Positions 8,325 through 28,044 of a DNA stretch of 32,369 nt are shown piece by piece. The stretch spans positions 1 through 32,369 of the forward strand of contig JACSSA010000075.1 of the NCBI GenBank assembly GCA_014879465.1, in the 5' to 3' direction. Made by a program: the position numbers and the translations under genes. Each line of letters begins with the position of its first letter. Within the stretch, counting starts at the first letter, position 1. Source of the stretch: Rhodothermales bacterium (GTDB lineage: Bacteria; Bacteroidota; Rhodothermia; Rhodothermales; BA12). The notes beneath the pieces are model-generated. The model was not told the origin of the DNA and made no database searches. It worked only from the letters and a program-made list of their open reading frames with translations.

Positions 8325-9512
8325 ATGTCCGACGTTTTCCTCGTCTCAGCCGTTCGCACGCCCATTGGCCGCTTCGGCGGTTCGCTCAAAGACCATTCGT
8401 CCGTCGATCTGGCCGCCGTGGCGATGAAGGCCGCCCTCGAACGCGGCGGTGTCTCGGGCGCTGACCTCGATTTCTACGTCTTCGGCAACGTGCTGCGTGC
8501 CGGGCAGGGGCAGCTTGTCCCGCGTCAGGCGGCCATCCAAGCGGGCATCCCCAACGAGGTGGACGGCCTCCAACTCGACATGGTCTGCTCGTCGGGGATG
8601 ATGGCGGTGATGAACGCCGCCGCGCTCATCAAGGCGGGCGACGCCGACCTGATCCTCGCAGGCGGCACCGAGTCGATGACCAACACCGGCTTTTACGTCG
8701 GCAGCGGCGCGCGTTGGGGCTTCAAGTACCTCGGCCAGCCCGAAGCCTTCACCGACGTGATGCAGCGCGATGGTCTCTCCGACCCGTTCACCGGCGAGGC
8801 GATGGGCGTGCAGGCCGACCGCGTCGCCAAGGAGCACGGCATCGCCCGCGAAGACATCGACGCCGTGGCCGCCGAGTCCCACCGCCGCGCCGCCGAGGCG
8901 CACGCCAAGGGCGCGTTTACCGACGAGATTGTGCCGGTGGAGTACCGCGACCGCAAGGAGACGAAGACGCTCGTCGTAGACGAGGGCATCCGCGAGGGCA
9001 CAACCGCCGAAAGCCTCGGCGCGCTGCGCCCGGCGTTCGGGAAAGACGGCGTGCTCACCGCCGGATCGTCGTCGCAGATTTCCGACGGCGCGTCGGCGAT
9101 TCTCGTTGCCAGCGCCGAAGCGGTACAAAAGCACGGCCTCACGCCCATCGCCAAACTGTCGGGCGGCGCGTGGCACGCGGGCGAGCCGTGGCGCTTCCCC
9201 GAAGCGCCCATCCCAGCGGCGCAAAAACTGCTCGGCAAGCTCGGCCTGTCGGTGCAGGACATCGACCTGTTCGAGAACAACGAGGCGTTCGCGCTCAACA
9301 ACGTGCTGTTCACCCGGATGCTCGGCGTGTCGTCCGACGCGCTGAACGTGCACGGCGGGGCCGTGGCGCTCGGCCACCCGATTGGGGCCAGCGGGGCGCG
9401 GATCGTCACGACGCTCGCGCACGCGCTTCGCACGCACGGCAAGCAGCGCGGCCTCGCCGCCATCTGCCACGGCACCGGCGGCGGCACCGCCGTGGTCATC
9501 GAACGCGTCTAA
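8325..9512 (+). CDS. Acetyl-CoA C-acetyltransferase (thiolase)
   Basis: 395 residues. The start at MSDVFLVSAVRTPIGRFGGSL is the canonical thiolase N-terminus. The acyl-carrying cysteine is C88 (DMVCSSGMMAV). The C-terminal active site has H351 (ALGHPIGASGARI) and a second cysteine, C381, in CHGTGGGTA; the more usual thiolase form is CxGGGxG, so this is a mild variant. NNEAFA replaces the common LNEAFA. It catalyses condensation or thiolysis of acetoacetyl-CoA or longer 3-ketoacyl-CoA, in beta-oxidation or in acetoacetyl-CoA formation. No other fatty-acid gene flanks it. A terminator follows. Confidence 0.92.
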   Translation: MSDVFLVSAVRTPIGRFGGSLKDHSSVDLAAVAMKAALERGGVSGADLDFYVFGNVLRAGQGQLVPRQAAIQAGIPNEVDGLQLDMVCSSGMMAVMNAAALIKAGDADLILAGGTESMTNTGFYVGSGARWGFKYLGQPEAFTDVMQRDGLSDPFTGEAMGVQADRVAKEHGIAREDIDAVAAESHRRAAEAHAKGAFTDEIVPVEYRDRKETKTLVVDEGIREGTTAESLGALRPAFGKDGVLTAGSSSQISDGASAILVASAEAVQKHGLTPIAKLSGGAWHAGEPWRFPEAPIPAAQKLLGKLGLSVQDIDLFENNEAFALNNVLFTRMLGVSSDALNVHGGAVALGHPIGASGARIVTTLAHALRTHGKQRGLAAICHGTGGGTAVVIERV

Positions 9513-23591: not shown

Positions 23592-23599
23592 TACATTCA
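23592..23599 (+). promoter_or_regulatory. -7-like element of the small-ORF/NDT-like cassette
   Basis: TACATTCA ends 21 bases before ATG 23621, the spacing seen at other genes here. It supports the small ORF as the first gene of the cassette. Confidence 0.4.
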
Positions 23600-23620
23600 G
23601 TTCTCAACGCGGATCAGACT

Positions 23621-23788
23621 ATGGCACGCACCTACAGAACCGTACAGACCAATCCCGCGAAGGGGACGATTAAGATTGAACGCGTCCGTGAGATTGTGCT
23701 CGCGGTGAAAGGGCAGAGCGTGCGCTCTGGCACGTTGGCTGCCAAACCTGCGCCTGCTCCGAAGAGAAATGGCAACGGCCACCGCTGA
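23621..23788 (+). CDS. Small basic protein, first gene of unknown cassette
   Basis: 55 residues beginning MARTYRTVQTNPAKGTIKIE and ending in a Pro/Lys/Arg-rich tail (PAPAPKRNGNGHR). About a quarter of its residues are Lys or Arg; there is no signal peptide, cysteine or membrane segment. Support for translation: a -7-like element at the usual spacing, no other reading frame that fits, and a 20-base overlap with the next gene in the +1 frame, which implies translational coupling. I do not recognise a family. It could be a partner, antitoxin-like or DNA-binding peptide for the protein that follows; this is inference only. Confidence 0.6.
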   Translation: MARTYRTVQTNPAKGTIKIERVREIVLAVKGQSVRSGTLAAKPAPAPKRNGNGHR

Positions 23789-24428
23789 GGCGATGCCAGA
23801 AGCTTCTGACCTCAATGTCTTTGTCAACTGTCCATTTGACAAGGCATATGCACGTCTCTTTCAAGCACTTGTCTTTACAATCCACGATTGTGGCTTTGTA
23901 GTACGCTGTGTGCTAGAGGATCAAGACACGGGTACACCACGACTGAGTAAGCTTGAGGCGCTCATTAAAATATCCCCTCAGGGCATACACGACCTGTCAC
24001 GAACCGAGTTGGACGCACATAGCGGATGGCCTCGCTTCAATATGCCGCTTGAGCTCGGGTTGTTTTTGGGAGCAAAACTCTTCGGCACACAAGAGCAGCA
24101 AGCCAAACGAATCCTCGTGTTGGATTGCAAGCATTACCGTTACCAAATCTTTTGCTCGGATCTGGCAGGGCAAGACCCTAAGGCGCACGATGCTGACGAG
24201 GAGCGGCTCGTTGATGTCGTCCGGACATGGCTCCGGGCATCGCTTTTGCTTCCGTCCACCGAGCAAATGCCGGGCGAGGAGCGGATAGCGCGGCGCTACC
24301 GTGAGTTTGAAGAAGCGTTGCCTGAGTTATGCCGCCGTGCCGGTATTCGGGCATCCAAAATGCCATTCGACCGATACGCTGATTTCGTGCATTTTGTGGT
24401 GGAATGGCAGCGTGCAAGTCCTCTCTGA
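23769..24428 (+). CDS. TIR/nucleoside-deoxyribosyltransferase-like protein of unknown function
   Basis: 219 residues. The order of elements fits a Rossmann-like NDT/TIR/SLOG fold: strand one LNVFVNCPFDKAY (15-27), a helix ending in IHDCGF, strand two VVRCVLED, then GIHDLSRTE and the motif FNMPLELGLFLGAKLFG. The Glu of LELG occupies the place of the catalytic glutamate in nucleoside 2-deoxyribosyltransferases, and HDLS the place of their conserved Asp. The C-terminal half (YRYQIFCSDLAGQD, DVVRTWLRAS) is helical and ends with a FDRYADFVHFVVEW segment. A nucleotide or NAD glycosidase is possible but not shown. Base composition is mixed: one stretch (23821-23880) has 24 G/C in 60 bases. The gene overlaps the preceding small ORF. 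Confidence 0.65.
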   Translation: MATATAEAMPEASDLNVFVNCPFDKAYARLFQALVFTIHDCGFVVRCVLEDQDTGTPRLSKLEALIKISPQGIHDLSRTELDAHSGWPRFNMPLELGLFLGAKLFGTQEQQAKRILVLDCKHYRYQIFCSDLAGQDPKAHDADEERLVDVVRTWLRASLLLPSTEQMPGEERIARRYREFEEALPELCRRAGIRASKMPFDRYADFVHFVVEWQRASPL

Positions 24429-24477: not shown

Positions 24478-24987
24478 ATGTCGCGCGCGTTCGTCTCGGA
24501 CGATGCCTTGGAGAACTCGGTCGCCGTGGTGCCGCCGCGCGCGCCGCTGCCCGATGGCGTGCCCAACTACGTCACCCCTCGCGGTCTTCAACGCCTCCGA
24601 GACGAACGCGCCGCGCTGGAAGCCGAACGGGCAGCCGTGGAGGCCAACCGGCGCGGCTCCGACACCGACCGTGCCCGGCGGCTCTCGGCGCTCAACCAAC
24701 AGGTCGCGGAACTGACGGCGCGGCTGCGATCGGCCAAGCTCGTCCAGCCCGATCCTGCGCGGCAAGACGTGCGCTTCGGCGCGACGGTCGAGGTGGAGCA
24801 CGCCGACGGCACGCGCCGGACGTACCGCATCGTGGGCGTAGACGAAGCCGACGCGGCAGACGGTTGCATCGCGTTTACGTCGCCGCTGGCGCGTGCGCTC
24901 ACCGGCAAGCGGGAAGGGGAGACGACCACGTTGGATACGCCGCAGCGAGCCGAACGGCTCGTGGTGGTGGCGGTGCGCTATGCCTAA
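24478..24987 (+). CDS. GreA/GreB-family transcription elongation factor
   Basis: 169 residues. The start MSRAFVSDDALENSVAVVPP, then NYVTPRGLQRLRDE, is the usual opening of GreB-like factors. An N-terminal coiled coil at about 40-90 (Ala/Glu/Arg-rich, with LNQQVAELTARLRSA) leads to the C-terminal FKBP-like domain with RFGATVEVEHADGTRRTYRIVG and a GKREGE turn near the end. Acidic residues near the coiled-coil tip would reach the RNA polymerase active site and stimulate cleavage of backtracked RNA. An Rnk-type regulator is less likely given the length of the coil. The leader is A-rich (AAAAAAC) without a Shine-Dalgarno sequence. Confidence 0.88.
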   Translation: MSRAFVSDDALENSVAVVPPRAPLPDGVPNYVTPRGLQRLRDERAALEAERAAVEANRRGSDTDRARRLSALNQQVAELTARLRSAKLVQPDPARQDVRFGATVEVEHADGTRRTYRIVGVDEADAADGCIAFTSPLARALTGKREGETTTLDTPQRAERLVVVAVRYA

Positions 24988-26858: not shown

Positions 26859-27344
26859 ATGAGCGCTGCCTCCAACATTCAATTGTTCGAAAACCTGTTG
26901 TCAAGGCAGATTTCTTGGATAAGCGCTGCTGATTCTAAGGCTAGTTTTGTTTTTGGTCTTAATGTTGCAATGGCTGGTGTCTTGGTGTCGTCTCTCCCTA
27001 GGCGCTTGTCGTTGCTGGATAAGATCTCCTCCATCACTATTTCTATGTATTTTGTGCTTTTCTTTGTCAGCATTGTATTCGTTGTATTAGTTTACTTCCC
27101 TAGGCTCAATGGGTCTAAGGAATCCAACTTATTTTTCAGAAATATTATATCGAAAGAAAGAAGTAATTTTGTGAAAAATATGATTAACATATCTAACGAT
27201 GATATTTGTGCTGATATGCTTGATCAAATATATATCAATGCCGGTATTGCTGATTCTAAATTTACGTGGCTAAAATATTCTATGATAATGAATTTAATAT
27301 CGATCACACCTTGGCTTTTGTCGATTTGGTTTCTTCTTTCCTGA
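26859..27344 (+). CDS. pycTM: Pycsar-type membrane effector (PycTM-like, DUF5706-like)
   Basis: 161 residues. The N-terminal amphipathic helix NLLSRQISWISAADSKASF is the hallmark opening of the DUF5706/PycTM family, running into membrane segment one (about 29-46). Segment two is at 58-80 and segment three at 142-160. The cytoplasmic stretch between (81-140) is polar and Asn/Ser/Lys-rich, and would sense cyclic nucleotide. In known Pycsar systems, cCMP or cUMP made on phage infection activates the TM effector, which impairs the inner membrane and aborts infection. It precedes the cyclase gene by seven bases. Codon use is strongly A/T-biased, unlike all neighbours. Confidence 0.8.
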   Translation: MSAASNIQLFENLLSRQISWISAADSKASFVFGLNVAMAGVLVSSLPRRLSLLDKISSITISMYFVLFFVSIVFVVLVYFPRLNGSKESNLFFRNIISKERSNFVKNMINISNDDICADMLDQIYINAGIADSKFTWLKYSMIMNLISITPWLLSIWFLLS

Positions 27345-27351
27345 TCATACA

Positions 27352-28044
27352 ATGTCGCGTTTAAAACTAGAAGATTTGCGCCCTAAAGTCCGAGAGATAT
27401 TTTCTACGGATTGGAATCGAAGGAATGGGCGAATTGTGCCGGATACTTCAGGTTTGACTCTCACTAATAGCGGCGTTGATATTGAGGCTTGTGTTTTGTA
27501 TTGTGATCTAGATGAATCAACCAATGTAGTAGATTCTGTGCCTGATTCTGTTGCGGCGGAAATTTATAAAACATATCTACATTGTGCCGCCAAAATCATT
27601 AGAGATCATGATGGTGAGATAGTATCCTATGATGGGGATAGAATAATGTCTATATTTGTTGGAAATGAAAAATGCATGCAGGCTGTGTGGTGTGCAATGA
27701 AATTAACATATGCAGTTCGTGAGTTAATCAGAAGTGAAATTGTAAGGAAATATAATGGGTATCAAGATAAGATATCGCACACATGTGGTATAGATACGGG
27801 TAGTCTTTTGGTTGCGAAGACTGGAATTAGATCGTATAATGATCTAGTTTGGGTGGGATCTGCTGCGAATTATGCTGCGAAAATGACATCGGGAGGTAAA
27901 GACGAGGTTAGGATTACTTCGGAAGTTATGAGTCAATTGCCGGATTGGCTGATTTATAGTGATTTGGATATTTATATGTGGAGGGGTCAATTTTTGGGAT
28001 TGGGGCGTATAGTTTTTTCTACAGATTATGGATTCGTTTTCTAA
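27352..28044 (+). CDS. pycC: Pycsar-type pyrimidine nucleotide cyclase (PycC)
   Basis: 230 residues, one class III cyclase domain at about 40-200. The metal-binding aspartates are D52 (LYCDLDES) and D96 (SYDGDRIMSIF). The segment GIDTGSLLVAKTGIRSYNDL and then VWVGSAANYAAKMTS is the form typical of PycC rather than of adenylate cyclases. N173 matches the transition-state Asn, and K177 stands where classical adenylate cyclases have Arg. It would make cCMP or cUMP upon phage sensing; which base cannot be read from the sequence. The C-terminal 30 residues form a short extension. The stop codon overlaps that of the convergent carboxylase gene. Confidence 0.85.
   Translation: MSRLKLEDLRPKVREIFSTDWNRRNGRIVPDTSGLTLTNSGVDIEACVLYCDLDESTNVVDSVPDSVAAEIYKTYLHCAAKIIRDHDGEIVSYDGDRIMSIFVGNEKCMQAVWCAMKLTYAVRELIRSEIVRKYNGYQDKISHTCGIDTGSLLVAKTGIRSYNDLVWVGSAANYAAKMTSGGKDEVRITSEVMSQLPDWLIYSDLDIYMWRGQFLGLGRIVFSTDYGFVF

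Follow-up and report, generated by a model that had tools for sequence, protein, structure and literature searches.

Two adjoining genes on the forward strand of the window (the whole stretch of 32,369 nucleotides that was analysed) constitute a horizontally acquired module, in which a small basic gene precedes the gene for a TIR-like enzyme, a distant relative of the CAP12/Pycsar TIR domains that belongs to no catalogued family. We think it probable that the module is a mobile effector and partner pair, the effector being a TIR-like NADase that would act through Glu95 and be switched on by a dedicated partner bearing a short tag. TIR effector systems as a kind are already known; what is new here is an uncatalogued TIR-like family with a tag-bearing partner. 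The first-pass annotation had described an unrecognised two-gene cassette, and this description was upheld: no library recognises the fold, the cassette has spread horizontally and it is probably a conflict system. The homologues keep the partner, the fold is that of TIR domains and the gene is not a core gene.

The locus and its TIR-like enzyme

The small gene (23621-23788, +) encodes a protein of 55 amino acids with a net charge of +10 (MARTYRTVQTNPAKGTIKIERVREIVLAVKGQ...), and was identified from its open reading frame, from the partners found upstream of homologous enzymes and from an N-terminal profile. The longest open reading frame of the enzyme (23769-24428, +) encodes 219 residues with the motifs NCPFD (residues 20-24), HDLS (74-77) and NMPLELGLFLGAK (91-103), so that both genes were found as initially annotated. 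Homologues start about eight residues ahead of VFINCPFD. A start at ATG 23793 (M9) agrees with this, makes 23793-24428 (+) the likelier extent of the gene and leaves a gap of 4 nt after the stop codon of the partner. The 20-base overlap reported earlier holds only for a start at 23769 and, given where the homologues begin, probably reflects a wrong start codon of the large gene; the coupled translation deduced from it hangs on the same doubtful codon. Across homologues, whose starts were picked by script, the median gap between partner and enzyme is 3 nt, with an overlap in 30% and none in 70%, and overlap as a general rule for the pair was dropped on this account. A -7-like element had also been ascribed to the small gene, for which the best TAnnTTTG match has two mismatches; 90% of shuffled sequences match as well, so that the element is at chance level.

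The lower GC content noted for the region is real. GC falls to 55% across the two genes, differing from the flanks, and the third codon positions have a GC of 0.67 in the small and 0.54 in the large gene, compared to 0.87 in the flanking amylase gene and 0.83 in the GreA-like gene, as expected of imported DNA. The latter gene (24478-24987) encodes a GreA/GreB-like protein that scores far under the equivalog cut-offs, and a homologue is present in part of the genomes of the order only; synteny around it matched only greA itself, the relatives being too distant. Further downstream, a complete Pycsar pair was identified at 26859-28044, composed of PycTM (PADLOC E 6e-37) and PycC (27352-28044; PADLOC E 1e-79), with a GC content of about 37% inside a region of 67%. 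The distance of 2.4 kb given for this pair is correct, whereas a functional link to the module is unsupported, as three unrelated genes stand in between and the cyclase has its own PycTM effector; the Pycsar pair is an import separate from the two-gene module.

AlphaFold2 modelled the 219-residue enzyme with a TIR fold (pLDDT 89.9, pTM 0.87). Foldseek matched the model with probability 1.00 to the SPARTA TIR-APAZ, the SfSTING TIR and AbTir (the latter with a TM of 0.79 on the target, at 2.9 A), with modest E-values ranging from 2e-3 for the best match to 5e-2, and placed TIR domains first and nucleoside deoxyribosyltransferase (NDT) structures (9emx, 8rh3) after them. Searches of Pfam, NCBIfam, PADLOC and PHROGs assigned the protein to no family, and it has no sequence match in the PDB. 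Compared by hhalign to homologues of the CAP12/Pycsar TIR (PF10137), the enzyme family obtained a probability of 90.4 (E 1.4e-6), with its RxNxxxE and SD..G motifs lining up with those of that domain. Weak matches to PF10137 were present in 22 of the 71 aligned members (best E 0.0044), none of which passes the Pfam gathering score (L011, for example, reaches 16.7 against a cut-off of 24.7), and the window protein itself has no match. Membership of NDT (PF05014) was rejected, with no Pfam match and an hhalign probability of 0.3%, and so was that of DUF4062 (PF13271), with no match in the 71 members and a probability of 1%. At the level of sequence profiles, this comparison is decisive between the candidates and assigns the enzyme to the neighbourhood of the CAP12/Pycsar TIR rather than to NDT or DUF4062; of the TIR/NDT-like fold originally proposed, the TIR part thus stands and NDT membership does not.

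Thirteen residues are invariant over the 71 relatives (N20, P22, R58, D75, R89, N91, M92, P93, E95, G97, S130, G134 and D136), and most of them fall within four motifs. FVNCPFD (23820-23840, +) forms the first strand and loop according to the alignment and the model, with F18 and D24 nearly invariant besides N20 and P22. In IHDLSR (residues 73-78; 23985-24002, +), located at a strand end at the predicted pocket, H74 is nearly invariant. RFNMPLE (24033-24053, +) carries R89, N91 and E95 with a spacing identical to the RxNxxxE of the CAP12/Pycsar TIR, and since these residues align on that motif, E95 (codon GAG, 24051-24053, +) is the predicted catalytic glutamate. SDLAGQD (residues 130-136; 24156-24176, +) matches the PSDxxG of the same domain. 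The model ends in a C-terminal helical extension (24198-24416, +; helices 144-158, 170-190 and 203-216), which is a candidate docking surface for the partner. The enzyme is probably an NAD-destroying anti-phage effector. A diverged subgroup was observed in Chlorobiaceae (L026, L027), with enzymes of about 218 residues in which HDLYRC replaces HDLSR; the gene ahead of theirs is not a tagged partner but a longer one of another kind (about 240 amino acids).

The partner gene and its tag

A small basic ORF was found directly upstream of the enzyme in 71 of 91 loci (GTDB and IMG/VR), compared to 21% of other long ORFs submitted to the same crude test, so that the co-occurrence proposed as a check was observed. 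Among 124 loci that were sorted, 79 have an upstream partner of a recognised type, the motif type in 51, the DUF2188 type in 26 and both types in two, and in 17 the motif is found downstream instead. Partners have a median net charge of +12 and a median length of 77 amino acids. PF09954 matched each of the 16 DUF2188-type partners tested, and an entire enzyme clade has partners of this type; more generally, partner type tracks the enzyme tree, with 19 changes compared to 46.5 when shuffled. The partner genes of the relatives are under purifying selection: dN/dS was below 1 in six of six related pairs tested, and the 56-aa partner of two Sphingomonas plasmids has no amino acid changes at a dS of 0.20. 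The partners of the motif type have a tag in common, with the consensus RTIKSPPKRGSVTRSEIRKAVKKV in the relatives. A search of 21,980 six-frame ORFs, taken from the window and 90 loci, gave motif hits solely next to an enzyme gene, including two that the script had labelled as elsewhere, one beside a broken enzyme frame (L038) and one in a second tandem copy (L039). No natural fusion of partner and enzyme was found among the relatives. We know of no function for DUF2188 (PF09954), and the present association is the first functional context known to us for this domain; in the open-access papers searched, no report was found that links DUF2188 to a TIR protein or describes a tagged TIR partner.

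The 55-aa protein of the window (MARTYRTVQTNPAKGTIKIERVREIVLAVK) carries the motif at residues 6-30 (RTVQTNPAKGTIKIERVREIVLAVK; 23636-23710, +), as judged from profile scores. AlphaFold2 predicted a single helix (residues 19-37; 23675-23731, +) and no globular fold (mean pLDDT 77, pTM 0.32), which is what a peptide folding on its partner would show. With the N-terminal tag profile the protein scored 15.7 bits, a value reached by two of 20,000 composition-preserving shuffles; the general motif profile was weaker (4-10 of 5000 shuffles as high) and a Poribacteria-heavy profile weaker still (258 of 20,000), and as several profiles were tried, the true chance value lies between these results. The length of the ORF is in itself little evidence for a gene, because the frame is open already from 23099. 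Three relatives from the same order have a comparable gene, two with clear tags at the partner position (L122, L123) and one with a basic ORF of 55 amino acids (L003). Taken together, position, charge, homologues and N-terminal motif indicate that the ORF is more than a chance frame, and its sequence marks it as a divergent, minimal example of the tagged partner.

The tag is also borne by very different proteins. In all 17 Poribacteria loci the motif opens the protein encoded just downstream of the enzyme gene (hmmsearch E 1e-5 to 1e-11), where it is followed by a DUF2188 domain (PF09954, 2.8e-15), a GIY-YIG/URI-like domain (Pfam matches sub-threshold), the remainder of an uncharacterised protein of about 590 amino acids or a CD-NTase. 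The sequence assignment of the latter as a CD-NTase (CBASS cyclase) is convincing, with a PADLOC cyclase match at E 1.3e-127, a CdnG-like PDB match at 2e-67 and an intact GS...DxD. A survey of 85 Poribacteria genomes yielded six tagged CD-NTases (L063:8631-9905, L211, L212, L213, L214 and L217), all of which start 36-43 nt after a TIR-like gene (two of these genes are broken), whereas none of seven untagged CD-NTases, 58-75% identical to them over the common part, has such a gene within 1.5 kb (Fisher p 6e-4). Hits to the tag alone in these genomes lay directly after a detected TIR-like gene in 44 of 58 cases and not in the other 14, and a scar of a TIR-like gene was recognised in two of five exceptions examined. 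In these decayed modules (L235:909-1560, scar LFDAIVFAVH; L239, just upstream of 1468, YTFAIAEWLSLQP) the tag protein survives beside the scar. HEPN was considered as an alternative tag partner, as a HEPN_RiboL-PSP gene precedes the tag in L235, and was rejected because the scar stands just before the tag. Four of the tagged partners are large (about 420-610 amino acids; L044:8642-10402, L038:8629-10410, L047:8608-9864 and L238:1459-3108), and the domain after their tag has no match in Pfam, PADLOC or the PDB; the one in L238 is preceded by a membrane-protein-like ORF rather than by a TIR-like gene.

We interpret the motif as a docking tag by which one TIR-like effector may be coupled to interchangeable sensors, with the minimal version present in the window. 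The wider proposal of a plug-and-socket immunity, in which a single TIR-like executioner serves many unrelated sensors recruited by the same short N- or C-terminal tag (basic peptides, DUF2188 and GIY-YIG-like proteins, CD-NTases and other large proteins), is advanced tentatively, as a reasonable possibility.

Spread and genomic context

Of 395 genomes of the phylum 33 have a relative of the enzyme, and of 114 of the order seven. More than 560 GTDB stretches spanning many phyla, 17 plasmids and 11 viral contigs carry relatives; none was found in GenBank phages. The 80 best GTDB hits lean toward the clade of the window, and many loci are metagenome-assembled. The distribution, which takes in plasmids and prophages, is patchy, mobile and not that of a core gene. 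Two Sphingomonas plasmids have in common only a segment of 1.14 kb with both genes, lying beside a Tni/Mu-type transposon in one and beside a relaxase/Fic region in the other, which implies that the pair moves as a unit.

Around 44 loci the genes are for the most part housekeeping ones, besides single restriction-modification, Dpd and Zorya-like genes, so that the expected co-occurrence with known defence genes was largely lacking; location in defence islands is not claimed, and the surroundings indicate a stand-alone cassette. No nucleoside-salvage context was found around the enzyme relatives. Four Chlorobiaceae loci encode a fusion of the enzyme domain with an FGE-sulfatase (C-type lectin) domain, which adjoins NACHT-FGE proteins, one of which has a weak DUF4062 match, and a reverse transcriptase (PF00078) is present in two of the four. 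One of them (L167:4823-14705) is a diversity-generating retroelement (DGR) locus with a reverse transcriptase, two NACHT-FGE targets and the enzyme-FGE fusion. Between its template repeat (about 8386-8520) and the NACHT targets most differences fall on A positions, which is the signature of such retroelements. Active diversification of the enzyme-FGE fusion was rejected, as its C-terminus has diverged in a manner that is not A-specific and the A-bias is confined to the NACHT paralogues. It has been proposed that loci of this DGR/NACHT type are conflict systems (PMC10907252, PMC7159879). Indirect support for a putative anti-phage role of the module comes from the fold, the mobility and the links to CD-NTases and to DGR/NACHT loci.

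Mode of action and comparison with known systems

In the favoured reading, the enzyme, when driven to assemble, would most likely use Glu95 to cleave NAD+ or a similar nucleotide. The N-terminal tag of the partner, an extended segment followed by one helix, would dock on the enzyme, leaving the remainder of the partner to sense invasion, by a short basic tail here and by a DUF2188 domain, a GIY-YIG-like domain or a whole CD-NTase elsewhere; in the basic and DUF2188 versions the trigger is probably nucleic acid. The partner would then switch the enzyme on, the infected cell would lose its NAD+ and the phage would fail. For the last steps, from enzyme assembly to shutdown of the cell, there is a precedent in Swarozyc, a TIR-like NADase activated by a phage portal (PMC13174449).

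The alternative that survives best is a type II toxin-antitoxin system, in which the small upstream protein would be an antitoxin that restrains a toxic TIR-like NADase until it is degraded. The order and size of the genes, their close spacing and a partner that is mostly disordered with one helix give the pair the look of such an operon, and in two Chlorobiaceae fusions the upstream ORF begins like a Phd/YefM antitoxin (in L011 with a Pfam match just under the cut-off). Yet the partners are strongly basic, the FGE-fused enzymes lack a small partner, and the Poribacteria partner is encoded downstream and can be a CD-NTase of more than 400 amino acids, which is not antitoxin-like. We judge this explanation unlikely for the family as a whole, and possible for the small upstream partners.

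Less probable still is a CBASS-like arrangement, where the enzyme would respond to a cyclic nucleotide of other origin and the small ORF would be no more than a regulator or the relic of a longer, tagged synthase. The tagged CD-NTases adjoining the enzyme speak for it, as does the CAP12 TIR of CBASS being the closest profile; however, no STING, SAVED, cNMP-binding or other nucleotide-receptor domain was detected by any library in the window protein or its 71 relatives, most modules lack a synthase, and the PycC of the window is already served by its PycTM. It is quite improbable that the 55-aa ORF is no gene and that the TIR-like gene alone is real here: although the frame happens to stay open from upstream and the match to general tag profiles is weak, its place, spacing, length and charge are right, the N-terminal profile gives p ~1e-4 and relatives from the order have tagged or basic ORFs in the same place. 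An NDT-like enzyme of nucleotide metabolism, to which the related folds and the two NDT structures among the Foldseek matches might point, is very hard to reconcile with the profile comparison, the patchy, mobile distribution and the absence of a nucleoside-salvage context.

TIR NADases are a main means of killing infected cells in bacteria and in eukaryotes, and the question of their activation is still open. The family described here is widespread, has no Pfam, NCBIfam or PADLOC model and has partners marked by a short tag; if this tag is a real plug, it offers a search handle for new infection sensors in genomes. If plug and socket hold true, gaining the tag is all that a sensor needs to be wired to the enzyme, and the idea, if proven, would exceed a mere variant of TIR effector systems.

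Among known systems, the CAP12/Pycsar TIR (PF10137; bacterial STING-TIR) has the TIR fold and the order DF..xDD - RxNxxxE(L)G - SDxxG in common with the enzyme, which differs in its own NCPFD and IHDLSR motifs, its C-terminal helical extension, its small tagged partner, the lack of a STING, SAVED or cyclic-nucleotide receptor and a score below the Pfam cut-off. Swarozyc, a group of DUF4062 TIR-like NADases that work through NAD+ depletion (bioRxiv 2026, PMC13174449), is likewise outside the classical Pfam TIR, patchy, horizontally spread and equipped with a single catalytic glutamate, but it brings a sensor domain of its own, and a separate small partner is not described for it (PMC13174449), while the present enzyme lacks DUF4062. 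SPARTA, a short Argonaute with TIR-APAZ, provides the best Foldseek matches and couples a TIR to a nucleic-acid sensing partner, as is proposed here, whereas the module contains neither Argonaute nor APAZ. CBASS is approached in the six Poribacteria loci where the partner is a CD-NTase adjoining the TIR-like gene, although this CD-NTase bears a tag not known in CBASS and the module of the window has no CD-NTase. Finally, type II toxin-antitoxin systems resemble the module in the small gene that comes first and in the tight spacing, an order that is reversed in Poribacteria.
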